This document shows positions 1 through 13,284 of a stretch of 28,958 nucleotides of DNA, one piece after another (positions within the stretch are counted from its first letter, which is position 1; each line of letters opens with the position of its first letter). The translations under genes and the position numbers were made by a program. The notes under the pieces were generated by a model. That model made no database searches. It saw only the letters and a list, made by a program, of their open reading frames with translations, and was not told the origin of the DNA. The stretch lies in IMG/VR virus record IMGVR_UViG_3300012944_000048, positions 1-28,958 of that record; one strand, written 5' to 3'. This stretch comes from a virus.

Positions 1-1469
1 ACGCCATCCATCAGGTCCTTGCCTGGGTTCGCGTGCTGCTGCTCCGCTACGTTCGAGAGGAACTGCTCGAACCATCCCTGCGTGAGCTCGGTTGGCGTCT
101 CGATCGCGAGGCCGTGCATCGCCTCCTTGAAGCGCGTCATGCCCGAGCCGCCGCGCGTCATCACCTTCGCGACCTGGGAGCCGACGTAGCCATCGAAGCC
201 TGCGCCGAGGAGCGCGGTAGCCGCGCCGACCTGCCACAGGGTTTGGATGCCGGCGGAGTTCGAGATCTCGGCGCGCGCCTTCGCGCGGTCGCCGTGGGAC
301 TTCACGAGCGCAGCCTGGTACTCCGGAGCCTGCTCGAGCACGCTCTCCGGGAGCTTCGCGATGGAGTCCTCGACCTGCTGCCCCTGCTGGCCGCCGGCGA
401 TCAGGCCCTCGCCCGCGCCCCCGAGTGCGATGGCGCTGTACGTCGCAGCCTTGATCGCCGCCTTCTCTGCGGCTGCCCTCGCTGCGAGGGCCGACAGGCC
501 CAACGTCTGCGACTTCGCGAGGGACGTGCGGAAGGCGACCGTTGCGGCGAACTTCGCGCCGACGCCCGCCACCGGGAGCGTAGCCAACGTGGACGGCAGC
601 GAGTTGACGATGCCAGAGTAGTACGCGCGCGGATCTGACCACGCCTCTCCGAAGGTCTCGCCCTTCTGGCTCGAGATCCATTCTTTCTGCGACGCGTCGC
701 GCATGTCCGGCGACAGCTTGTCCCCGTAGTAGTCGGAGACGTCCTGCATGATGCCAGACAGGCTACGGCCAAGATGCTCTTCCGAGAGCCGGTTGATCTC
801 GCCGCCGCTCACCTTGTCGGCGGCGTATGAGAGCCCCTGCACGGCCTGCGCTGACCCCTGGCCGAGCAGGTTCAGGGTGTCAGAAATAATGCCCGGTTTT
901 TCTGACGGAGCAGCCTTGACTGGCTCCTCCGGGTCCGCTACGAAGTCGGTGAACGCGCCGGACTGCGCCGGCCCGGCGATGTTGCGGTTGACGCCGGCGA
1001 CGTACTGCGGCACAGAAACGCCGTTGCCGTCGCGGATGTGCCCCATGCGGCTCACGTCGCCGCCGTACTGGTCGATCAGCTTGGGGTCGGTGAAGTAGGC
1101 GGCCGTCTGCGCGTCGGGGTTGCTCGGGTAGCGGTCGGCGTTCTGCTTGATCAGCTTCGCGGCGGCGCGCGCGTTGTCGTTCGGGTCGTCGATGTTGCCG
1201 TCGGGCATGAGGCCGCCGAACGTGGCGGGCATGACCTGGAAGCCGCCGCGTGCGCCGTTGACGCTCGTGCGCGGGTTGCGCCCGCTCGAGCTCTCCATCT
1301 GCCAGTGCGCGAGGACGCGCTGAGGATCTGCGCCCTCTTCCTTCGCGATGCGGATTACGTCATCGCGCGTGATGCTCGTGGGGGTCTGAGCCTGCGATAC
1401 GGGGGAAGAGACCGGCGCGTCGGGCGAGCCTGGGACGTTCTCGACGAAATCGGTGAAGCCGGTTGACAT
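1..1469 (-). CDS. N-terminal part of large ejection protein with SLT lytic transglycosylase domain (runs off left edge)
   Basis: The reading frame is open from an ATG at 1469 to the window edge (489 codons, no stop), so the gene is partial at its 3' end. Residues about 33-140 look like a soluble lytic transglycosylase (goose-lysozyme-like) domain: the likely catalytic glutamate is E59 in HWQMESSSGRNP, followed by GARGGFQVMPATF (72-84), the usual G-x-x-G-x-x-Q-x-M-P motif. Such domains in podovirus internal virion proteins cleave host peptidoglycan during DNA ejection. Residues about 280-360 and 410-430 are Ala/Gly-rich and hydrophobic, as in ejection proteins that insert in membranes. A short motif is duplicated: GFTDFVENVP near residue 4 and AFTDFVADPE near residue 172. 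The start has a GGGAG Shine-Dalgarno nine bases upstream. In Bcep22-like phages the equivalent protein can be several thousand residues; whether that holds here lies outside the window. Confidence 0.85.
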   Translation of the reverse strand, partial: MSTGFTDFVENVPGSPDAPVSSPVSQAQTPTSITRDDVIRIAKEEGADPQRVLAHWQMESSSGRNPRTSVNGARGGFQVMPATFGGLMPDGNIDDPNDNARAAAKLIKQNADRYPSNPDAQTAAYFTDPKLIDQYGGDVSRMGHIRDGNGVSVPQYVAGVNRNIAGPAQSGAFTDFVADPEEPVKAAPSEKPGIISDTLNLLGQGSAQAVQGLSYAADKVSGGEINRLSEEHLGRSLSGIMQDVSDYYGDKLSPDMRDASQKEWISSQKGETFGEAWSDPRAYYSGIVNSLPSTLATLPVAGVGAKFAATVAFRTSLAKSQTLGLSALAARAAAEKAAIKAATYSAIALGGAGEGLIAGGQQGQQVEDSIAKLPESVLEQAPEYQAALVKSHGDRAKARAEISNSAGIQTLWQVGAATALLGAGFDGYVGSQVAKVMTRGGSGMTRFKEAMHGLAIETPTELTQGWFEQFLSNVAEQQHANPGKDLMDG

Positions 1470-1517
1470 CTTGTTCTTCTCCCGGCCTGCGCTGCGCAAA
1501 GGCGCGCGCCGTCACCG

Positions 1518-1563: not shown

Positions 1564-3345
1564 TCAGGGTTTCAGAGCCCTCTCGCGCACTGCCTCTTGA
1601 TTCACGAGGCCGGAATACCTCTCCATGGCTGCCTTGTGGGCTGCCTGGAGTTTCGCGATCTCGGCGCGAACACGTGCGGCGCCGGCATAGTCGTACTTCA
1701 GCGCGCTGTTGTTGATGTCATGCAGCTTGCCATTGGCCTCAGAGATAGATTTCCGCAGGCTATCAACTTCCTGCCCTGCTGCCTCTGCCTCTTTAGGCGA
1801 CGCCACGCGAGGCGGCGGCGGCTTCGGCAGGCTGGCCTGGACTGGCGCCGGAGCTGCCGCTGGTGTTGCGGCCGGCGCCGGTGCGCGCGCTGCCGCGGGG
1901 GGCGCTGCGGGGCCGGGCTGCGGAGCTGCCACGGCCGGCTTGGCGACGGGGCTGATTCCGTACACGACCTCGTTGCGGCCCTTCCCGTAGCGCACGGCGT
2001 TCCACTGCTGGCCGTTCAGCATCGCGACGCCGACCTTCGCGTCCGGGTCGCCGTCCTGGATGGCCTCGGCGATCTTGACGGCCTCCGGAGCGTTCTTCCC
2101 TAGCGCGTCGTTGTTGATGAAGAGCGACTGCGCGACGCCGGCGGTCTTGGATTGGTCGTAGGGCTTCACTTCCTTGCCGAGAGCTGCTTCGTTCTGACGC
2201 GCCGTAGCGTTGCGCCCGACGAGCGTCATGATCTGCGAGATACCCTTCGTCTGCTCTTGCGACATGCGTCCTTCGCGCCCTCCGGCGCTCTTGACATTTG
2301 TCTCGCCGGTCTTGAGGTTCGTGGTCACGATGTCGCCATTGCGATTCATCGAGGTCGAGTACCGGTTGCCCTCCTGGAGTTTGTTGACCGTGCCGGTCGG
2401 GCCGATCTGGTACACGTCCTCGTCCGTCTTGAACGCCTTGATTCCGGGCGGCGCAATGACGCCAAGCGCCATAGCAGCGTGGAGCATGTCGAAGCCCTGG
2501 AACGGGCGCTGCGAGCCATCCGGCATCACTGAGAGCCCGCTGTACTTCCCTGCGCCGTCGTAGCGCAGGCTGCCCGGGGCGACGCGCCATGTCCCGTTGG
2601 CGTTCGCGATCTCCTCGAGCTTTCTGGTGTTCGTTGGGTCCATCATCGCCTGGTGCGCGAGCTGGCCGAACCCCTCCTTCTCCAGCATGTCCTTCGTCTG
2701 TATGATCTGCTGCGCGCGCCCGGCGTCTCCGCGCTGGTTCGCTTTCTGCGCGAGGACGTCGAGTAGCCCTGCACGCCCACCAGCCGGTTGGCCGGGGGCG
2801 GCGGGCGCCGCCGCCGCAGGCATGGATGGCCGCGGCGGGGTGGGGAGAGCTGTACCTGGCTGGCCGGCGACCGGCGCGGCCACGGAGGCGTCAGGCTTGG
2901 GTGCCTGTGGCGCCGGCGCGGCAGGGATGGGTGCTGGCGATGCCTGGAGGGTCACCCCGGGCACTGCGCTCGGGGGCATGGGTTGCGCGGGAGCTGGCGC
3001 CGGAACTGCTGGAGCCGCGGCAGGAGCGCCTTCCGGCGCGGCCTCCGGGGCAGCGACAGGCGCGGCGGCTGCTGGCGCAGCCTGGGGCTGCTGGAAGCCA
3101 GGGTAGCCCGGCGCCGCGGCCTTGTAGTAATCCGCCGTCGCGCCACGTTCCTCTGCCTCAGCGGCACGTTGCCGCTGGAGCTGGTCGGCCTGGTCGCGTC
3201 CGATGTCGAGCCGCTGGCGCGCAGCGGCGACGTCCGCCTGACGACCTTCCTGCTCGGTATCGAAGCGCTCCTCCTCCTGCCGGTAGTCGCGCGCCGACTT
3301 CAGCGCATGACCGGCGTAGGAGAGCCCGCTGAGGCTGAGACCCAT
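1564..3345 (-). CDS. Internal virion (ejection-type) protein with Ala/Pro-rich linkers
   Basis: A 593-residue protein. Residues 1-70 are helical and charged (RDYRQEEERFDTEQEGRQ), a probable coiled coil. Residues about 80-200 are a long, probably unstructured Ala/Pro-rich linker. About 200-460 is a folded-looking segment of unknown family, and about 465-520 is a second Ala/Pro linker leading to a C-terminal coiled coil (about 525-585). There is no signal peptide or transmembrane segment. It lies between a basic Gly-rich protein and the transglycosylase protein, the usual place for podovirus internal virion proteins. Its ATG shares one base with the stop of the upstream gene (TAATG at 3343-3347), implying translational coupling. 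I do not recognise a named family; the virion role is inferred from position and architecture. Confidence 0.75.
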   Translation of the reverse strand: MGLSLSGLSYAGHALKSARDYRQEEERFDTEQEGRQADVAAARQRLDIGRDQADQLQRQRAAEAEERGATADYYKAAAPGYPGFQQPQAAPAAAAPVAAPEAAPEGAPAAAPAVPAPAPAQPMPPSAVPGVTLQASPAPIPAAPAPQAPKPDASVAAPVAGQPGTALPTPPRPSMPAAAAPAAPGQPAGGRAGLLDVLAQKANQRGDAGRAQQIIQTKDMLEKEGFGQLAHQAMMDPTNTRKLEEIANANGTWRVAPGSLRYDGAGKYSGLSVMPDGSQRPFQGFDMLHAAMALGVIAPPGIKAFKTDEDVYQIGPTGTVNKLQEGNRYSTSMNRNGDIVTTNLKTGETNVKSAGGREGRMSQEQTKGISQIMTLVGRNATARQNEAALGKEVKPYDQSKTAGVAQSLFINNDALGKNAPEAVKIAEAIQDGDPDAKVGVAMLNGQQWNAVRYGKGRNEVVYGISPVAKPAVAAPQPGPAAPPAAARAPAPAATPAAAPAPVQASLPKPPPPRVASPKEAEAAGQEVDSLRKSISEANGKLHDINNSALKYDYAGAARVRAEIAKLQAAHKAAMERYSGLVNQEAVRERALKP

Positions 3346-4268
3346 TACGCCGCCCTACGAGGCCGGGAGAACGACGGGAGCTTCCCACGCCGCGCTACAG
3401 GCGCGGTACGCAGGTTGTTGGCAGGCTTGCCGTCCAGACCGTTGCCGGCGGTGTCCTGACCCGCGAAGGACGGGACCATGCGACCGCTTGAGGTGACTCC
3501 GGTTGAAGGGACGCCGCCTGGCTGCGAGAGCGGGATTGGCGCGTTGCCACCGAGCAGGCCGCCGTTTCCGCCGTTGGCCGGCGCGGACGTGTTGGCCTCG
3601 TTCCCGAGCGGCTTGACGACGCGGCCTTTGTCCGAGCCGTGACGATTCACTTTGCCGCCGGACGCATACCCGTTTTCTTGCGCCATGCCGCCGGTCACCG
3701 CGCCGCCAGACTTCAGGCCGCCCTCGAAGCGCAGACCAAGCCGCGCGCGCGAGCCGGCTTTGCCTGGCGAGTCCTTGTGCTGCTCCATGTACGCGTGCGT
3801 CGATTCGCCATCTGCCTTCGCAGCAGCCTTCTCCACGCCCGGGTGCTTGACCGCTCCCTGGATCCACTTGTCGCCGCCGACTTGACCGCCCTTGGCGTAC
3901 CGGCGCCCGACGTCCATCTTGTTCTGCTCGACGTCTGACATGGCCTTGCCTGCGGACGTGCTCATGTTCCCGCGGGGAGCACCACCTGTGGCTGCGACGC
4001 CCACCGTCATCGGGGTGCCCTTGATGATCTTCCCCTGCTTCGGGGCAGCGGAGCTGCGCGGCGTCTCGCTCGCGTAGCCTGCTTTCCCCTCCTGCCCGGC
4101 TGGCGGAGTTCCGGCGCGGATGCCCTTCATCGGCGTGATCTCCTTGGTGTTCTGCTTGGGGGCTGCGCCGGAGGTCGTGACCGCGCGATGCGGTGCGGAC
4201 GGCATGGCGACGCCGCGAAGAGGCGGAACGTGGCCGTCGGTCTGGTCTGGTTTTGAGTGCTTCTTCAT
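3345..4268 (-). CDS. Basic, Gly/Ser-rich low-complexity virion protein
   Basis: A 307-residue protein, rich in Lys, Arg, Gly, Ser and Pro, with no hydrophobic core segment. Short motifs of the form YAKGGQVGG, LKSGGAVTGG and YASGGKVNR recur at about 120-210, and a similar KKGGRV/LKGGSV pattern occurs in the neighbouring virion protein at 5227-6531. This suggests both belong to the same internal assembly. The start is well supported by CAAGGAGAAGCAC directly before the ATG. The stop overlaps the next start (TAATG). The family is not recognised. Its positive charge would suit contact with packaged DNA, but that is inference. Confidence 0.7.
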   Translation of the reverse strand: MKKHSKPDQTDGHVPPLRGVAMPSAPHRAVTTSGAAPKQNTKEITPMKGIRAGTPPAGQEGKAGYASETPRSSAAPKQGKIIKGTPMTVGVAATGGAPRGNMSTSAGKAMSDVEQNKMDVGRRYAKGGQVGGDKWIQGAVKHPGVEKAAAKADGESTHAYMEQHKDSPGKAGSRARLGLRFEGGLKSGGAVTGGMAQENGYASGGKVNRHGSDKGRVVKPLGNEANTSAPANGGNGGLLGGNAPIPLSQPGGVPSTGVTSSGRMVPSFAGQDTAGNGLDGKPANNLRTAPVARRGKLPSFSRPRRAA

Positions 4269-4284: not shown

Positions 4285-4668
4285 TTAGTTGCCCGTGTTC
4301 TTCTCGATCACGAGCTCGTCCTCGAGCGCTTCCTTCGGCAAGCCGTGCGTGTTGTGGATGCAGTACATCACCGTGTTGTCCTCGAGTGCGACGAACTTGT
4401 GGAAGCATCCGGCCAGGATCTTGATCCCGGTCGGCGCCACGAAGTCTCCGATAAACTTGTCGTCGCGCCACGCGCGCACTGCGCCGGTCGCGAGCATCGA
4501 CGTATGGTCGTAGGTGTGCTTGTGCCCTGGCACGCCGTAGCCTTGCTTCTTGAGCTGGATCTGGCGGATGTAGATGCCGTCCGCATCGTCGTAGATCTCC
4601 ACGAGCTCGGGCTGCTCAGCGACGGGGAGCGCTTCGGACATATCGGGTGCTGCGATCTCAGAACGCAT
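4285..4668 (-). CDS. Cupin-fold protein
   Basis: About 127 residues from the ATG at 4668, which overlaps the stop of the hydroxylase-like gene by 11 bases. An ATG at 4641 (MSEALPV) is an alternative without a better ribosome site, and the frame also stays open upstream to 4740. The middle carries a cupin-like signature: GHKHTYDHTSMLATG gives H-x-H and a third His at the position usually held by Glu. It is followed by APTGIKILAGCFHKF, resembling cupin motif 2 (P-x-G then a His ligand). Cupins are small beta-barrels that often bind a metal through these histidines; substrates cannot be read from sequence. Immediate overlap with a 2-oxoglutarate oxygenase-like gene suggests a shared process. It could instead be a structural jelly-roll. 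Confidence 0.7.
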   Translation of the reverse strand: MRSEIAAPDMSEALPVAEQPELVEIYDDADGIYIRQIQLKKQGYGVPGHKHTYDHTSMLATGAVRAWRDDKFIGDFVAPTGIKILAGCFHKFVALEDNTVMYCIHNTHGLPKEALEDELVIEKNTGN

Positions 4669-5227
4669 TGCCCACCCCGCGCGTCTTGATGTCGGCGACC
4701 AGGTGAACGCGCGGCGTAGCTCCGCGGTTGTGCACCTCATGCTCCTTCGTGTAGTCCACCCACCATACCTCGCCGCTCTTCATGTTCACGCTCTCGTCGC
4801 CGCAGATGAACTCCGACTTGTCGTTGCTCGCGAGGACGAGGTGGAACCTGTCGTAGTACGCCGCAGATCCGCCGGTGTCGCTGTGCCGGTCGATCTTTCC
4901 GCCGGCCGCCAGCTTGTTGATCATCACGCGCCCAAGCCGCTCGCCCTCGACCTCATGCATCAGGTCGAAGATAACAGGGCGGATTTCGTGCCCCAAGCTG
5001 TTCATCGCTGGCTCGTCGAAGCACTCGAACGGATCGGCCTCCGGTACGCGCGTGTCGAGCCAGGGACGCTTGTCCGGGAAGCGAAGGTAGATCGTGTCCA
5101 CGTCACCGAACTTGGTGTTCGGGTAATTCTTCCAGAACGTGTCGAGTTCGAACAGCTCCGGCTGATCCTTGAGGGCGGCCATGATGCGGCCCGCGGGAGC
5201 GTGGAATGGGAGGCGCTTGATGTTCAT
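4658..5227 (-). CDS. Aspartyl/asparaginyl beta-hydroxylase-like 2-oxoglutarate/Fe(II) oxygenase
   Basis: A 189-residue protein. KIDRHSDTGGSAAYYDRFHL carries the H115-x-D117 metal pair. KEHEVHNRGATPRVHLVADI carries distal ligand H163 and R173 ten residues later, the usual spacing for the arginine that binds 2-oxoglutarate. The block EHEV...R..L..D closely resembles the C-terminal block of the AspH/LpxO-type hydroxylase family (Asp_Arg_Hydrox). Members hydroxylate Asp/Asn side chains or lipid A acyl chains using O2 and 2-oxoglutarate. All four residues expected for activity are present. The start shares one base with the upstream stop (TAATG at 5225-5229). Sitting within a row of virion genes, the target may be a virion protein or a host-surface component; that is inference. 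Confidence 0.85.
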   Translation of the reverse strand: MNIKRLPFHAPAGRIMAALKDQPELFELDTFWKNYPNTKFGDVDTIYLRFPDKRPWLDTRVPEADPFECFDEPAMNSLGHEIRPVIFDLMHEVEGERLGRVMINKLAAGGKIDRHSDTGGSAAYYDRFHLVLASNDKSEFICGDESVNMKSGEVWWVDYTKEHEVHNRGATPRVHLVADIKTRGVGNAF

Positions 5228-6531
5228 TAGTCCCTCACTCCGCCCTGCGGGACGTTGAATCGGTTCGCGTCCGGGCGACGCAGAATCAGCTGGCGAAGCT
5301 GCTCCTTCTGAGCCGGCGACATGGGACGCTGCGCGGTCATCCCCTGGCTCGTGCGCTCGGGCTGAGCCTCGGGCGCGCGTGGCACCGAGTTCGGGTCATC
5401 CTCGTCGTCGAGGCGCTTGATGGCCACCTGCGTTTGCGCGCTGATTCCGCCGCTGGCGAGCTTCGTGGTCGGCTCGACGTGCACGCCGTTCTTCATCTTG
5501 CTGCCCTTCGGCAGACCGCCGAGGTTCATGCGGTCGAGCTTCTTCAGGCCGATCTTCTTGGTCGCCTTCGCGTTCATGACGTACTCTCCATTGGAGAGCG
5601 CGCCCGGCCTGCCCGCGATGCTCACGGGAATAGAATCACTGGTGCCTGTACCTGGGCCTTTCACACTGCCGCCCTTGAGGTAGTCGTGCGTTCGGCTCGG
5701 CGGACGGGGCAGCCGCACACGCCCCCCCTTCTTGTACGCTCCGGACCCCGAGTAGTCCGCGTACACAGTGTTCGCGTCGTTGACGGCGCCGGTGTACACG
5801 TTGGGGTCGATGTTCCCCGATCCGACTCCGGAATTCGCCGGACTCGAGAACGACGGGAGCGAGACACCTTTCGAGAGAGAGCCCACCGCGCCGGCGAGCT
5901 GCCCGACGCCTGCGGCTTCGTTCGCCAGGATGTCAGACGAGCGCGCCGCGTTCGCGCCGGCAATTCCGGCCGCGCTCGCCGCGCCGTTCTCGGCGCTTAC
6001 AGCCGTACCCGGAAGGCCCTTACCTACGTCTGCCGCGGCGATTTTGGCGTTCAGCCCATACGCGCGCTCCGCTTCGCGCGCGGTATTCGCCGCGCCCGCG
6101 ACGGAGCCAGCTTTGGCGATGGAGTTCATGCGCTCCTGCTCCTGCGCATTCCCCGAGTCGGGTCGGATCCCCAACTGGTCGTTCTGAAGCTGACGCGCCT
6201 TGTCGGCGTTGTCGTAGGCAGCGCCTACGGTCGAGCCGGCCTCTGCGGCCTTCTGTTCCTGCATCGCAGGAGAGCCAGCCTGCTGAGCGTCGTTGACGAG
6301 GCTCGACTCAAGAGGGCGATAGGTGCTCTTGTAGTAATCGAAAAGGTCCTGGGAATTCTTCGTCTGCGCGTCCGAAGCCCGAGCCGCAGCTTCGGAAGCA
6401 TCGTTCTCCTGAGCAGACGGACCGCCGCTCTTCCCGCCAATAAGTCCCGTCTCCTTGGCGGCGATGAGCGCAGTCGAGCCTGCCGCTACCCACCCGGCAA
6501 ATCCACGCTGAAACCGAAGGCTCCTTACCAT
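5227..6531 (-). CDS. Internal virion protein, Ala/Gly-rich
   Basis: About 434 residues. The ATG at 6531 (MVRSLRF) is preferred because GGGGAAAGAG lies just upstream. An in-frame ATG at 6549 has no ribosome-binding site. Residues about 10-30 form a hydrophobic Ala/Gly helix (GWVAAGSTALIAA). About 40-220 is an Ala-rich helical region, then KKGGRV and LKGGSV motifs. A conserved phage-type motif follows, GPGTGTSDSIPVSIAG then LSNGEYVMNAKATKKIG (about 300-340), seen in many phage structural proteins near the tail or ejection genes. The C-terminus is charged and disordered. I infer a virion-internal or tail-associated protein; no enzymatic motif is visible. Confidence 0.75.
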   Translation of the reverse strand: MVRSLRFQRGFAGWVAAGSTALIAAKETGLIGGKSGGPSAQENDASEAAARASDAQTKNSQDLFDYYKSTYRPLESSLVNDAQQAGSPAMQEQKAAEAGSTVGAAYDNADKARQLQNDQLGIRPDSGNAQEQERMNSIAKAGSVAGAANTAREAERAYGLNAKIAAADVGKGLPGTAVSAENGAASAAGIAGANAARSSDILANEAAGVGQLAGAVGSLSKGVSLPSFSSPANSGVGSGNIDPNVYTGAVNDANTVYADYSGSGAYKKGGRVRLPRPPSRTHDYLKGGSVKGPGTGTSDSIPVSIAGRPGALSNGEYVMNAKATKKIGLKKLDRMNLGGLPKGSKMKNGVHVEPTTKLASGGISAQTQVAIKRLDDEDDPNSVPRAPEAQPERTSQGMTAQRPMSPAQKEQLRQLILRRPDANRFNVPQGGVRD

Positions 6532-6583: not shown

Positions 6584-6847
6584 CTACGGAGTATTCATTC
6601 GAGCAATCAAGGTATTGAGCGTGCGCTCGATGTCGCCCACGCGGGCAATGAGCTGATTCAGTTCCACTGTCGTTGCGACATTGGTCCCGGTCCCGGCCGC
6701 GACGTCGATCCCAACCGACGGGCTAGGCACGCCCTTCGTGAGCGCGATCGCTCCCCCGACGCGTCCGGAGAAGATTTCGATGTTCTCCTTCAGGGCCTTG
6801 AGGATGGACGGGATTGGCAGCTGCGTGTCGATTCCAGGCTTCTTCAT
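6584..6847 (-). CDS. Small virion-associated protein, downstream member of a tandem paralogous pair
   Basis: 87 residues, clearly related along its whole length to the preceding gene product (6851-7258). Shared blocks include GRxGG, SPSVGIDVA, GTNVA, ELxQLI and the helical VxDIERxLNxLI. It lacks the about 45-residue C-terminal extension of its partner. SD GAGG lies inside the end of the upstream gene, whose stop is three bases before this ATG. The N-terminal helix (ILKALKENIEIFSGR) and C-terminal heptad-like segment suggest a small oligomeric structural protein. No named family is recognised; position next to the nozzle-like protein suggests a tail or tail-proximal part. Confidence 0.7.
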   Translation of the reverse strand: MKKPGIDTQLPIPSILKALKENIEIFSGRVGGAIALTKGVPSPSVGIDVAAGTGTNVATTVELNQLIARVGDIERTLNTLIARMNTP

Positions 6848-6850
6848 GAC

Positions 6851-7258
6851 CTACCTCAGAAGGCTTCCTCCGACGGGGATCTCACCGAAGTACCACGCCC
6901 CGTATTCACCGTGGTCAGCCTGGTGCGAGAGAAGGAGTGCGTTGAACGCCTGATTTACGGTGATCGGAGCTACATTCGATGCCGCCGGCGATGGCGTCCC
7001 TGCGTTGAGCCTCGTGATCAGCGCGTTGAGCGCGCGCTCGATGTCCGCAACGCGACGGATAAGTTGAGTCAGCTCCGAGGTCTTGGCTACATTCGTGCCA
7101 GTTGCGCTCGCGACGTCGATTCCTACAGACGGAGACTTGAGCCCTTTGGTGGAGGAAATCTTCCCGCCGAGCCGCCCGGTCAAAATATCGACGGTCTCCT
7201 TCATGGCTCGAAGCACCACAAGAATAGGGCGCGAAAGGTCGATGTCTTGTTTCCGCAC
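6851..7258 (-). CDS. Small virion-associated protein, upstream member of a tandem paralogous pair
   Basis: 135 residues. Residues 1-90 parallel the 87-residue neighbour: an amphipathic helix with LRAMKETVDILTGRLGG, then SPSVGIDVASATGTNVA, then a helix VADIERALNALITRL. Residues 91-135 are unique and include ITVNQAFNALLLSHQ and aromatic DHGEYGAWYFGE. The gene begins six bases after the stop of the nozzle-like gene. Both copies have diverged well in DNA, so the duplication is old or both are under selection. Function is unknown; a virion role is inferred from location. Confidence 0.7.
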   Translation of the reverse strand: MRKQDIDLSRPILVVLRAMKETVDILTGRLGGKISSTKGLKSPSVGIDVASATGTNVAKTSELTQLIRRVADIERALNALITRLNAGTPSPAASNVAPITVNQAFNALLLSHQADHGEYGAWYFGEIPVGGSLLR

Positions 7259-7264
7259 GGCTCA

Positions 7265-9076
7265 TTACTGCTGGTCCATGGCCTTCGCGTTCTCCCCGAG
7301 CTGCACAGAGAATACGTCCACGTTGCCGAACACCTCGATTTCGTACATGTCCGACTTGTAGCCGCTGGTCATCTTGTGCACGTTTCGGTCTGTGAAGGAG
7401 CGGCCGTAACGCAGCTTGCCGTCCGCGTACACGTTGACGTTGACGAACCTCGTGGCGAGGGTGAGCGGAGAGCCCACCAGCCTGCTGCCGGCGAATGTAA
7501 TCTCGCCATACGCGTCCCTGCCGATCTGACCACCTTCCTTGTTGGTGCTGAGAATGGTAGCGTTCGTCGCCTGGTTCTGCGCCAGGACAGCTTGCTGAGC
7601 AGCGCCAGCCTGCATAGCAGGGTAGTCTGCATCCACGCGGATCGCGCCGTAGTTCAGAGGCTTCTTCTCGAGGAGGATCTTCGACTTCCAGTCGAAGCCT
7701 ACGTTGTTGTTCGGGTCAGAATCGAACTGCACGATGTCGCCGTTCACGATCAGATAGAGAAGGCCGGTCGTTGGGTCGAGCCATCGCCCGGTCGCGAAGT
7801 CAGTGAGTTGCCGAAGTCCGAAGTCTCCAGCCCGGTCAGTGACCAGGCCGGCTCCAGTCTGAACGCCGTTCAAGATGAACTTATTGAACCCGTGATAGAG
7901 CCCCTGGTAGATAGCGGCGAAAATTGTGTCGGGGAAGAATGTCGGCTTCCAGTTCTTTGCTAGGACGGTGGAGGACGTGACGATCTCCGCGGTGTCGGAG
8001 AGCGCGTTCGCAAGCCCGTTCGGCGAGGCGTACATGACACCCCATCCAACGTCAACGACGCTGCGCTTCGAGAGGCAAGGCTCCGGAACGCGCGCCTTGT
8101 TCGGCGCCATGGCGGATGGATTGCTCCCTGTGAACACGTATGGATTGGCGGTCGTGCACACGGCAATAGAGCTGCCGTTCGCGGCCATGCCAACGATGGG
8201 GAAGTCCACGCTGTAGCGGTTGCCGATCGGCCACGCGTGCGGCTGGAATGGCTCGGAAATGCACAGCTGGTTGTTGACGAAGCCGGCCATGGAGCCGTTC
8301 GGGAGCGCGATCAGACCTTGCATCCCTGACGGAGGCATCGACCAGGTGGTGCTCGGGAGCACCGTGCCGCCGATCAACGTGACGTCGAGCGCCGCGTCGG
8401 CGAAGCTCGCGGTAGCGAGCGTGATACCGCTCGCCACAAGCAAGAACGACGAGGTGCCGTCGGTACCGGTGACGGTGCGGTAGAGGTTCTTCGTAGCGAT
8501 CTGGAATGTACCGCCGCCAGGTTGCGTCACCTGCGGCAGGTTAACGTTCCAGGTCGCGTCCGACTTGCCAGTCCCGAGGACAGGGGCGCTAGGGGCGCCC
8601 TCCTCCCCCCACAGACTGACCAGCGTGTACACGTAGGCGCGGGTCTGATTCACCGCAACACCGCCGGTGATAGTGCCGATGGTGGGCGCTGTCGGGACGG
8701 GAACGCCGAGAGTGAACGACGCCAACGGGTAGTTCGTCCCGATCCCCTGGGTCGCGTTGACGTCGTTCGTGACCTTGGGCTCGCTGTCGCCAGTGTAGTA
8801 ATACCTGTTGAAAGCGTCGTTCGCGAGCTGGCTCTTCACGACGTCAACGTCGGTGATCCAGTGCAGCCAGTAATCGACGCTGAGGTAGTTGATCCGGTAC
8901 ATCGAGATCTTCGTACCGGCCTTGGAAGGCGTGATGACCTTCAGCGGCTTGCGGTAGGGCGAGATCACTCCGTTCGTAGCGCGGCAGCCCTGGGCCTTCT
9001 GGCCGAGCTGCTGAGGAAGCAGGTGCGCGTCGAGCGCCGGCTTAATGCCCCCGAAAACGTTGAGCAGGATCCCCAT
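7265..9076 (-). CDS. Tail nozzle / tubular-B-like or P22 gp10-like tail stabilisation protein
   Basis: 603 residues, beta-rich throughout. The N-terminus (MGILLNVFGGIKPALDAHLLP) resembles the opening of podovirus tail hub/needle-shaft proteins that begin with a short strand then a loop. The middle has propeller-like repeats with small-residue turns: GMQGLIALPNGSMAGFVNNQLCIS, ANPYVFTGSNPSAM, VVDVGWGVMYASPNGL. The C-terminal part has the typical arrangement of DIVQFD, FDWKSKI, then VNVYADGKLRYGRSFTDRN and YEIEVFGNVDVFSVQLGE. T7 gp12 and P22 gp10 families have similar size and place, between adaptor/fibre and ejection genes. A weak SD precedes the ATG. Assignment is by architecture, not alignment. 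Confidence 0.65.
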   Translation of the reverse strand: MGILLNVFGGIKPALDAHLLPQQLGQKAQGCRATNGVISPYRKPLKVITPSKAGTKISMYRINYLSVDYWLHWITDVDVVKSQLANDAFNRYYYTGDSEPKVTNDVNATQGIGTNYPLASFTLGVPVPTAPTIGTITGGVAVNQTRAYVYTLVSLWGEEGAPSAPVLGTGKSDATWNVNLPQVTQPGGGTFQIATKNLYRTVTGTDGTSSFLLVASGITLATASFADAALDVTLIGGTVLPSTTWSMPPSGMQGLIALPNGSMAGFVNNQLCISEPFQPHAWPIGNRYSVDFPIVGMAANGSSIAVCTTANPYVFTGSNPSAMAPNKARVPEPCLSKRSVVDVGWGVMYASPNGLANALSDTAEIVTSSTVLAKNWKPTFFPDTIFAAIYQGLYHGFNKFILNGVQTGAGLVTDRAGDFGLRQLTDFATGRWLDPTTGLLYLIVNGDIVQFDSDPNNNVGFDWKSKILLEKKPLNYGAIRVDADYPAMQAGAAQQAVLAQNQATNATILSTNKEGGQIGRDAYGEITFAGSRLVGSPLTLATRFVNVNVYADGKLRYGRSFTDRNVHKMTSGYKSDMYEIEVFGNVDVFSVQLGENAKAMDQQ

Positions 9077-11234: not shown

Positions 11235-12812
11235 CTACGCTTTGTAGCGTCCGTCGATGATGTTGATGAGGGTTCTCTTGCCATTCTTGTAAAGCAGGCC
11301 GTGGGTATGGAGCCACGAGCTCGGTCCGCGGTTGTACGAGAGGCGCAGGCGCGAGCTGGTGCCGACCTGGTACACGCCGTCCTCGATGCCCGGGCTATGG
11401 GCGTGCCCGATGAAGGTCTTGACGCCGATCTTCCCGAACGCCTTGCGCGTGCCGCGCGCTCCATTCGGCCCCACGTGCCCGTGGAATCCCATTTCCACCC
11501 CGAGCATGAAGAAGCTCTCGTCCTGGTGGAGGAACACGGTGTCCTGGTGCTTGAGCCACTGCTTTCCCCAATACGAGAAGATGTCGAGGGTGCTCGCGCC
11601 GCCGGTGCCCATCCTCGAGAGCTGGCACATGGCCACGTAGCTCTGCGCCCAAAAGATCGCGTTCTCTGGGTCCTTCTTCGGGTCGGTGTCGTTCACCCAC
11701 CGCCACAGGTGGTCGTTCGGGTGGTTGGACGGAACCACCACGTTCTTCGTGTGTGCCGGCGTGTGCTCGTCCATGAAAGTGAAGCACTCCATCAGCTCGC
11801 GCGACACGTTGCCGGCGCCCGAGTGGTGCTTCACGTAGTTGATGACCGCCTTGTCGCGGTCGTGGTGGCTGCCGGAGTAGCAGTCGAAAACGTCGTGCCA
11901 CACCAGAACCTCCGGCTTCAGGCTGTCTATGATGCCGCCATTGCCGAAGGTGGCCTTCACCACCTGCGGGTCCACGAACTTGACGTGCGTGTCGCCCATG
12001 ACAAGCGCTGCTGCGCGCGGGACGCGCTTGTAGTCGTCTCCGCTGTACTCCCACTCCATGTCCATGAAGCTGCCGTTCCTGATGGCGTTGATCTGGCGCA
12101 TGTGGAACAGCTCGCCCTCCTGCTCGAGGACGCACGCGCCGAACGTGTGGTGGTGCTCGCCTTTCTTCCCGGCCTTCGTCTGGAGGTAGTTCATCACCGT
12201 CACAGCGCCGGTGGTGGTGATGATCTTTGGCAGCTTGTGGCCGGGCGTCGCGACCGTCTTGAGCTCCAGCTTCGGGTGCCCGATGATGGCGCTCCTGCTC
12301 CCGCTGATCGTCTCGAACCCCTGGAGCGGGCTGCTCGCTGTCGGCTGCGTCTTGATGTCGCCGAGCACGACGAGGTGCCGGTTGATCTCCCATCGCTGGT
12401 CGAGGATGTACGGAGCCAGCTCGGGCGCCCACCAGTCGTCGCTATTCGCCTTCTTCGACCAGATCGCCGTCGGGTTCTTGTACCGGTACGGGATGACGAC
12501 GAGCTGCGCGTTCTTGTGCTTGCAGTAGGTCAGCAGCGACGCGAAGAACGCCTTGTTGATCGGGGTCGCGTTCTGCGCCGAGGTGATGACGTAGCGCTTG
12601 ACGTCCCTCTTGTCGAACTTCAGCTTGCGGTGCAGCTTTTTCACCGTGGCGGTGTCGATGCCCTTCGCCTCGGCAGACTCGACTCCGACAGGGTTGTGCC
12701 CGTTCCAGCAGTACGTCCCGTTTCTTTTGTGCCCGCAACTCCAGCGCTGCTCTCCAGCTCTGCCGGTGCCGCGCTTCACGACGGGTTTCCCACACTTGGG
12801 ACAGCTAGGCAC
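11235..12812 (-). CDS. Zinc-ribbon calcineurin-like metallophosphoesterase, resembling phage T5 A1
   Basis: About 525 residues from a GTG at 12812. In-frame GTGs at 12821 and 12845 are also possible; the latter would overlap the upstream gene by 41 bases and has no SD. Counting from the 12845 start, CPKC at 15-18 and C37/C46 form a zinc-ribbon-like head (WSCGHKRNGTYC). The phosphoesterase signature is complete: GDTHVKF (D285, H287), HDVFD (D318, D321), SNH (N374, H375), FHGHVG (455-457) and IGHAHS (480-483). These residues hold a two-metal site. T5 A1, needed for second-step DNA transfer, is of similar length and superfamily; equivalence is inference. Placement between an Ntn hydrolase and the endolysin is unusual. 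Confidence 0.75.
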   Translation of the reverse strand: MPSCPKCGKPVVKRGTGRAGEQRWSCGHKRNGTYCWNGHNPVGVESAEAKGIDTATVKKLHRKLKFDKRDVKRYVITSAQNATPINKAFFASLLTYCKHKNAQLVVIPYRYKNPTAIWSKKANSDDWWAPELAPYILDQRWEINRHLVVLGDIKTQPTASSPLQGFETISGSRSAIIGHPKLELKTVATPGHKLPKIITTTGAVTVMNYLQTKAGKKGEHHHTFGACVLEQEGELFHMRQINAIRNGSFMDMEWEYSGDDYKRVPRAAALVMGDTHVKFVDPQVVKATFGNGGIIDSLKPEVLVWHDVFDCYSGSHHDRDKAVINYVKHHSGAGNVSRELMECFTFMDEHTPAHTKNVVVPSNHPNDHLWRWVNDTDPKKDPENAIFWAQSYVAMCQLSRMGTGGASTLDIFSYWGKQWLKHQDTVFLHQDESFFMLGVEMGFHGHVGPNGARGTRKAFGKIGVKTFIGHAHSPGIEDGVYQVGTSSRLRLSYNRGPSSWLHTHGLLYKNGKRTLINIIDGRYKA

Positions 12813-13284
12813 GCTTCCCACCCTTGGCTTTCCAAACCGTGACACGGCCGTTCAGATCCATCGAGTAGAAAGGCCCCGCGGTGTTCTCGTCGATCTTCGA
12901 GGCGGCCACGACCGCCTCCAGTGGGCTCAAGCCGAGGAACTTCATCGCGTACATCGCGACATCGCGCCCCGAGCCGATCGCCATGAATTTGTCCTTCAGA
13001 GGGAAGCGGAATAGCGCCTGGTCCAGCAGGAACATGCCTTTCGCAGTCAGCTCGAGCACCACGAAGTCCTCGCCCTCCTTCTTGGAGAACGCAGGTTCGT
13101 CCGTTGGCGTAGCGCCGCGCGAGAGCCACTTGATCACCTTGCTGGATCCTGTGCCACCGGCCTCGCCGTAGATGGACTCGCCGAAGTGGTGCAGCTTGTT
13201 CGACAGGAAGGCGAAGCTCCCGTCGTCTGAGGAGCATTTCGAGTCGGCCGCGATCTCGCGTCCGTTGCAGGCGACAGTAGTCAT
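12805..13284 (-). CDS. Proteasome beta/HslV-like Ntn hydrolase
   Basis: 159 residues. After removal of Met1 the N-terminus is Thr-Thr-Val, as in HslV and proteasome beta subunits. The supporting residues fall in the expected places: AADSK (D14) and SNKLHHF (K30), matching Asp17 and Lys33 of proteasomes. AIGSGRDVAMYAM (102-114) matches the G-S-G element and following helix, and SPLEAVVAASKID (120-132) the next helix. Length is close to HslV (about 175). A peptidase acting as an oligomeric ring is expected; the substrate may be scaffold, other virion precursors or a host protein. No HslU-like ATPase is visible in the window. The ATG has no Shine-Dalgarno; a palindrome-containing promoter-like site lies directly upstream. 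Confidence 0.85.
   Translation of the reverse strand: MTTVACNGREIAADSKCSSDDGSFAFLSNKLHHFGESIYGEAGGTGSSKVIKWLSRGATPTDEPAFSKKEGEDFVVLELTAKGMFLLDQALFRFPLKDKFMAIGSGRDVAMYAMKFLGLSPLEAVVAASKIDENTAGPFYSMDLNGRVTVWKAKGGKRA

Follow-up and report, generated by a model that had tools for sequence, protein, structure and literature searches.

A hydroxylase gene paired with a GNAT or, in one phage, a four-histidine cupin beside the ejection genes of short-tailed phages

The stretch of DNA analysed here (the window) is the 28,958-base virus record IMGVR_UViG_3300012944_000048, which belongs to a short-tailed phage with a major capsid protein of the N4-gp56 type. A sister contig of the same phage, IMGVR_UViG_3300015245_000719 (61,949 bases), matches it at 99.9–100% DNA identity across the entire window and holds the full length of the gene for a 4,540-residue protein, inside which the window record ends. 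Within the window, overlapping genes for an Fe(II)/2-oxoglutarate hydroxylase and a cupin are flanked by genes for ejection or virion proteins (Table 1), so that both the coupling of the pair and its place inside an ejection-protein block, as proposed earlier from the sequence alone, are confirmed. The start of the hydroxylase gene shares one base with the stop of the preceding gene (TAATG), whose product also matches the virion structural protein family phrog_8003. The cupin frame runs from an ATG at 4668 to a stop at 4285, with GGGGTGGG immediately 5' of the ATG. Both frames are far beyond chance, because both have homologues with conserved active sites.

Table 1. Features of the hydroxylase–cupin locus and its surroundings in the window
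Feature	Position	Strand	Basis
N-terminal part of 4,540-aa ejection/polyvalent protein	3..1499	-	SLT transglycosylase domain, DarB-like region
593-aa ejection-block protein	1564..3345	-	no convincing family match
307-aa ejection-block protein, directly 3' of cupin	3345..4268	-	no family match
Four-histidine cupin, 127 aa	4285..4668	-	alignment (n = 36), cupin fold, ligand spacing
Cupin histidines	H49 4522-4524, H51 4516-4518, H55 4504-4506, H90 4399-4401	-	alignment (n = 36)
Hydroxylase/cupin overlap, 11 bases	4658..4668	-	sequence
Fe(II)/2-oxoglutarate hydroxylase (PF05118), 189 aa	4658..5227	-	Pfam, alignment, fold
Hydroxylase Fe ligands	H115 4883-4885, D117 4877-4879, H163 4739-4741	-	HxD...H
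Hydroxylase R173	4709-4711	-	active-site arginine, 2-oxoglutarate
Ejection/virion protein 1, 440 aa	5227..6549	-	clusters with phrog_598 'DNA ejection' family of related loci
603-aa virion protein (phrog_511), upstream	7265..9076	-	family of the gene 5' of the hydroxylase–GNAT pair in loci L015–L017

Upstream of the ejection block, 6584–6847 and 6851–7258 encode small tandem paralogous proteins (87 and 135 residues) with no family match. Further away, in the lysis-gene region, an open reading frame at 12805–13284 begins MTTVACNGREIAADSKCS and resembles the start of an Ntn-hydrolase/HslV-type protease; it adjoins the frame at 11235–12845 (536 residues, N-terminal zinc-ribbon match).

The window hydroxylase passes the Pfam model PF05118 (Asp_Arg_Hydrox) with an E value of 1.5e-16 and a score of 61.1 bits (cut-off 22.6). 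Its iron ligands H115, D117 and H163 and its active-site arginine R173 are unchanged in all 73 distinct relatives aligned, bearing out the complete set of Fe and 2-oxoglutarate residues read from the sequence at the outset, and R127/H129, a second pair on the 2-oxoglutarate side, is conserved in 72 of the 73. An AlphaFold model built from 49 sequences (pLDDT 91) finds the L-proline cis-4-hydroxylase 4p7w as its top fold match (E = 2.7e-10), with a nucleoside-antibiotic hydroxylase and AspH among the other solved structures. The protein has in common with the PF05118 oxygenases (AspH, LpxO, 4p7w and the proline 3-hydroxylase 1e5r) the double-stranded beta-helix fold, and with the family the HxD...H triad followed by an arginine ten residues beyond the distal histidine. 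In the alignments the iron is held by HxD...H as in proline hydroxylases, whereas AspH itself has HxG...H. Of the AspH/LpxO type given in the original prediction, the family assignment stands; equivalence to either enzyme does not. AspH was rejected on the short protein length (189 residues), the lack of a TPR match and the HxD site, and LpxO on an NCBIfam equivalog score of 21.1 bits against a cut-off of 500. Unlike both, the window protein has no TPR or membrane part and is a phage gene within a virion operon. The gene looks intact, and catalysis is predicted from the conservation of the active site.

A role for the oxygenase as an LpxO- or proline-hydroxylase-like envelope or metabolic accessory, with lipid A or a small molecule as its substrate, is quite improbable. 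An enzyme for free L-proline is indeed the top fold match and the LpxO profile does match weakly, but its 21 bits stand against a cut-off of 500, and such an activity would leave the acetyltransferase-family (GNAT) partner and the ejection neighbourhood described below unexplained.

In the cupin, residues H49, H51, H55, H90, C103 and H105 are identical in 36 of 36 phage relatives, in agreement with the three early histidines and the motif-2 histidine that had been noticed. No Pfam model, Cupin_2 included, matches the window protein, and a relative in locus L092 gives a weak Cupin_2 score of 22.3 bits (cut-off 27.2). The barrel of its AlphaFold model (pLDDT 80) matches solved cupins at E of about 1e-6. 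TM1459, a four-histidine Mn cupin with ligands H52/H54/H58/H92 (PMC5031596), shows the same HxHx3H...H spacing to within one residue (49/51/55/90 in the window protein), and both TM1459/KdgF-type cupins and the window cupin carry a cysteine 13–14 residues past the last histidine. The window protein differs from these at about 14–18% identity, and in being a phage gene product with an invariant CIH motif. Judged from its residues, the cupin is of the metal type, with a predicted TM1459-like four-histidine site. Its weak PHROG matches carry the labels 'short tail fiber protein' and 'tail fiber adhesin', which look like misannotations.

To place the hydroxylase in context, related loci were fetched on the hydroxylase alone, GNAT being no search criterion. 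From at least 521 relatives confirmed in IMG/VR, the 80 that ranked highest in similarity to the window hydroxylase were used; a genome search added 19 loci, mainly from Burkholderiales, and three named phages were included. Genes in the related loci were called by a simple composition score, and many of the contigs are fragmentary. A six-frame check placed a GNAT within 900 bases downstream of the hydroxylase in 98 of 101 phage and prophage loci and in 35 of 38 clusters formed at 80% identity. The loci without a nearby GNAT (L010, L158 and L163) are ctXG1253 and two genomic loci. Among 84 tabulated entries, the immediate next gene is a GNAT in 79, and ejection family 2 (phrog_598) stands at +2 from the hydroxylase in 69. 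The partner belongs to phrog_1249 and PF00583, with a median length of 151 residues, and short overlaps link the genes, as between hydroxylase and GNAT in L012 (6537/6534). Besides metagenomic phages, an isolated one, PfAn1, has the arrangement, as do prophage-like loci from Burkholderiales and Acinetobacter. The conserved unit is therefore hydroxylase plus GNAT, rather than hydroxylase plus cupin.

These counts overturn the earlier expectation that enzymes do not belong between internal virion proteins, as the GNAT is generally followed by ejection genes and in Zobellviridae occupies that place by itself. They also make it very improbable that these are morons, accessory genes that came by chance to lie in a permissive gap: the exact hydroxylase–cupin pair is private to this phage, as a moron might be, but hydroxylase and GNAT are kept together across nearly all loci and divergent clusters. 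AspH-like oxygenases have already been noted as auxiliary genes in Limnohabitans phage DC33, pelagimyophages and cyanophages, and the available excerpts of those accounts mention neither a GNAT partner nor a site beside ejection genes. DC33 is itself one of the hydroxylase–GNAT loci, its pair lying between TerL and portal, away from recognisable ejection genes. This phage (L009, PQ492659.1) is filed as Inoviridae despite a length of 39 kb and terminase- and portal-like genes, and is probably misclassified.

In the window, the hydroxylase still lies within the ejection block, the GNAT is absent after it, and the cupin occupies that place. A scan of the 61.9-kb sister contig found no GNAT, while the positive controls L012 and L131 were detected. 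By position, the cupin is a substitute partner, standing where the GNAT is otherwise found. In a tree rooted on ctXG1253, the window hydroxylase is nested within lineages linked to a GNAT (support values 82 and 84), which favours replacement of the GNAT, although the root is uncertain. Co-occurrence of hydroxylase and cupin in other phages had been set beforehand as a check on the pair as a modification module, and a lack of it as one half of the refuting condition; apart from the sister contig, no fetched locus contains both, so that this half holds in the loci fetched, and the pair was rejected as a recurring module. What survives of the original interpretation is thus a real oxygenase and a metal-type cupin, coupled in the ejection block; the surprise at finding an enzyme there and the pair as a module do not. 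The leading idea is still that a protein of the virion or of the host is modified.

Other phages fill the same position, between tail or head-closure genes and ejection genes (the slot), with one of these folds at a time. In the Zobellviridae VpV262, GP100, 1.253.O and 1.208.B it holds a GNAT alone, and in ctXG1253 a hydroxylase alone. In L092, nothing but the gene of a four-histidine cupin, 39% identical to that of the window, separates a tail-type gene from ejection family 2; the genes around it are of the families found around the slot in GNAT phages, and a scan of this 29-kb record found neither hydroxylase nor GNAT. Vibrio phage 1.211.A and the Zobellviridae member T4S1-k141_470236 have degenerate cupin-like proteins in the slot, both with the motif-2 histidine lost. 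Directly 5' of ejection genes in L164 (5908–6468) and L166 (5926–6369) lie proteins that look like degenerate cupins (phrog_12032/24280); their short tail fibre and adhesin labels are likely misannotation.

The same place, a small gene between tail or head-closure genes and the first ejection gene, is taken by gp13 in T7 (138 residues; probable scaffold protein in Pfam) and by gp14 in P22 (151 residues; annotated as a virion stability factor or for head morphogenesis). This positional likeness, the similar GNAT median length and the loss of a ligand histidine in 1.211.A and T4S1 would fit non-catalytic assembly factors or minor virion parts that borrowed enzyme folds as counterparts of gp13 and gp14. 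We consider this unlikely, though a serious rival, since the Fe and 2-oxoglutarate residues of the hydroxylase are invariant in 73/73 relatives and the cupin histidines in 36/36. No sequence relation could be detected between gp13 or gp14 and the hydroxylase, the GNAT or the cupin, and a profile comparison found no similarity between the GNAT and either protein (the P22 profile being thin, with three sequences only).

A hydroxylase with a partner at a constant site suggests an overlooked slot for enzymes that serve the ejection proteins or the entered host. Our preferred reading, to which we give a probability of roughly 0.4, is that the slot of these short-tailed phages holds enzymes which are expressed late, serve the ejection proteins and probably modify one of them. 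The slot enzymes would be made late, together with the structural proteins, and would act during assembly on one of the ejection proteins: the oxygenase would hydroxylate it, the GNAT, elsewhere, would acylate it, and the cupin would carry out some metal-dependent reaction. Such a step, most likely a protein modification and possibly a transient one, might tune how the proteins are packaged, how they unfold on passing the portal, or the conduit across the host envelope. More doubtful is the narrower proposal of a dedicated slot for ejection-protein modification, in which hydroxylase, GNAT and four-histidine cupin would all chemically modify proteins that are first packed into the virion and later injected, the chemistries being interchangeable and the window pair representing one exchange. 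When ejection family 2 from phages with the hydroxylase was aligned with that from phages lacking it, no Asp, Asn or His was conserved in the hydroxylase phages, so this family gave no substrate evidence for the Asp/Asn hydroxylation originally envisaged; the single invariant proline is also present where the hydroxylase is absent. This outcome counts against the preferred reading, as do the site of the pair in DC33 and the location of most cupin loci outside the slot.

Alternatively, the target of hydroxylase, GNAT and cupin might be a protein of the host, such as its RNA polymerase, a ribosomal protein or an envelope protein, the late operon providing the timing or the proteins being delivered along with the ejection proteins. 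We regard such host takeover as somewhat unlikely, yet a serious rival. Host-takeover genes usually act early, which counts against it, and a constant place beside ejection genes across families is not required of a takeover gene. On the other side, the ejection families vary (6, 30, 86; 9, 87) while hydroxylase and GNAT are constant, which fits a target outside the virion, and predictions for the GNATs of jumbo phages name host proteins as the targets of modification (PMC7824862). In the available excerpt on phiKMV-type phages (PMC7552054), the GNAT Rac brings about cleavage of the alpha subunit of the host's RNA polymerase, and the gene for Rac overlaps the first structural gene, placing a phage GNAT at the structural gene cluster as in the slot. 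Rac differs, according to the same excerpt, in being sited elsewhere, behind the phage RNA polymerase gene, and in having no oxygenase partner reported; the window itself is without a GNAT.

The hydroxylase–GNAT slot module is not described in the open-licence literature that we searched, and other papers may annotate such genes. If the narrower proposal of a dedicated modification slot is true, the slot would represent a class of phage protein maturation absent from that literature. How podophage ejection proteins stay compact in the head and then thread through the portal into a conduit is an open question, which a conserved enzyme pair beside the ejection genes makes directly testable in the cultured phage PfAn1. 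It would also give a new meaning to genes that at present carry labels such as hypothetical protein, auxiliary metabolic gene or tail fibre protein.

Four-histidine cupins also occur away from the slot. Of 31 distinct cupin loci, the majority lie in tail-fibre or lysis regions; 14 hold another 2-oxoglutarate oxygenase, five of them within two genes, a proportion that has no baseline for comparison. A tblastn search with the window cupin against named phages returned none at E 1e-3, and at E up to 10 mostly chance matches, two of which sit in the slot and are backed by a profile search. In L093, L095, L105 and other phage contigs, several 2-oxoglutarate oxygenase genes cluster by glycine-rich tail proteins and a cupin. 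Phage ctjtQ328 (L165, MW202879.1) has an unannotated four-histidine cupin frame, HEHTFAH...WHEIEALEDGTV, at about 5930–6210, near a holin gene.
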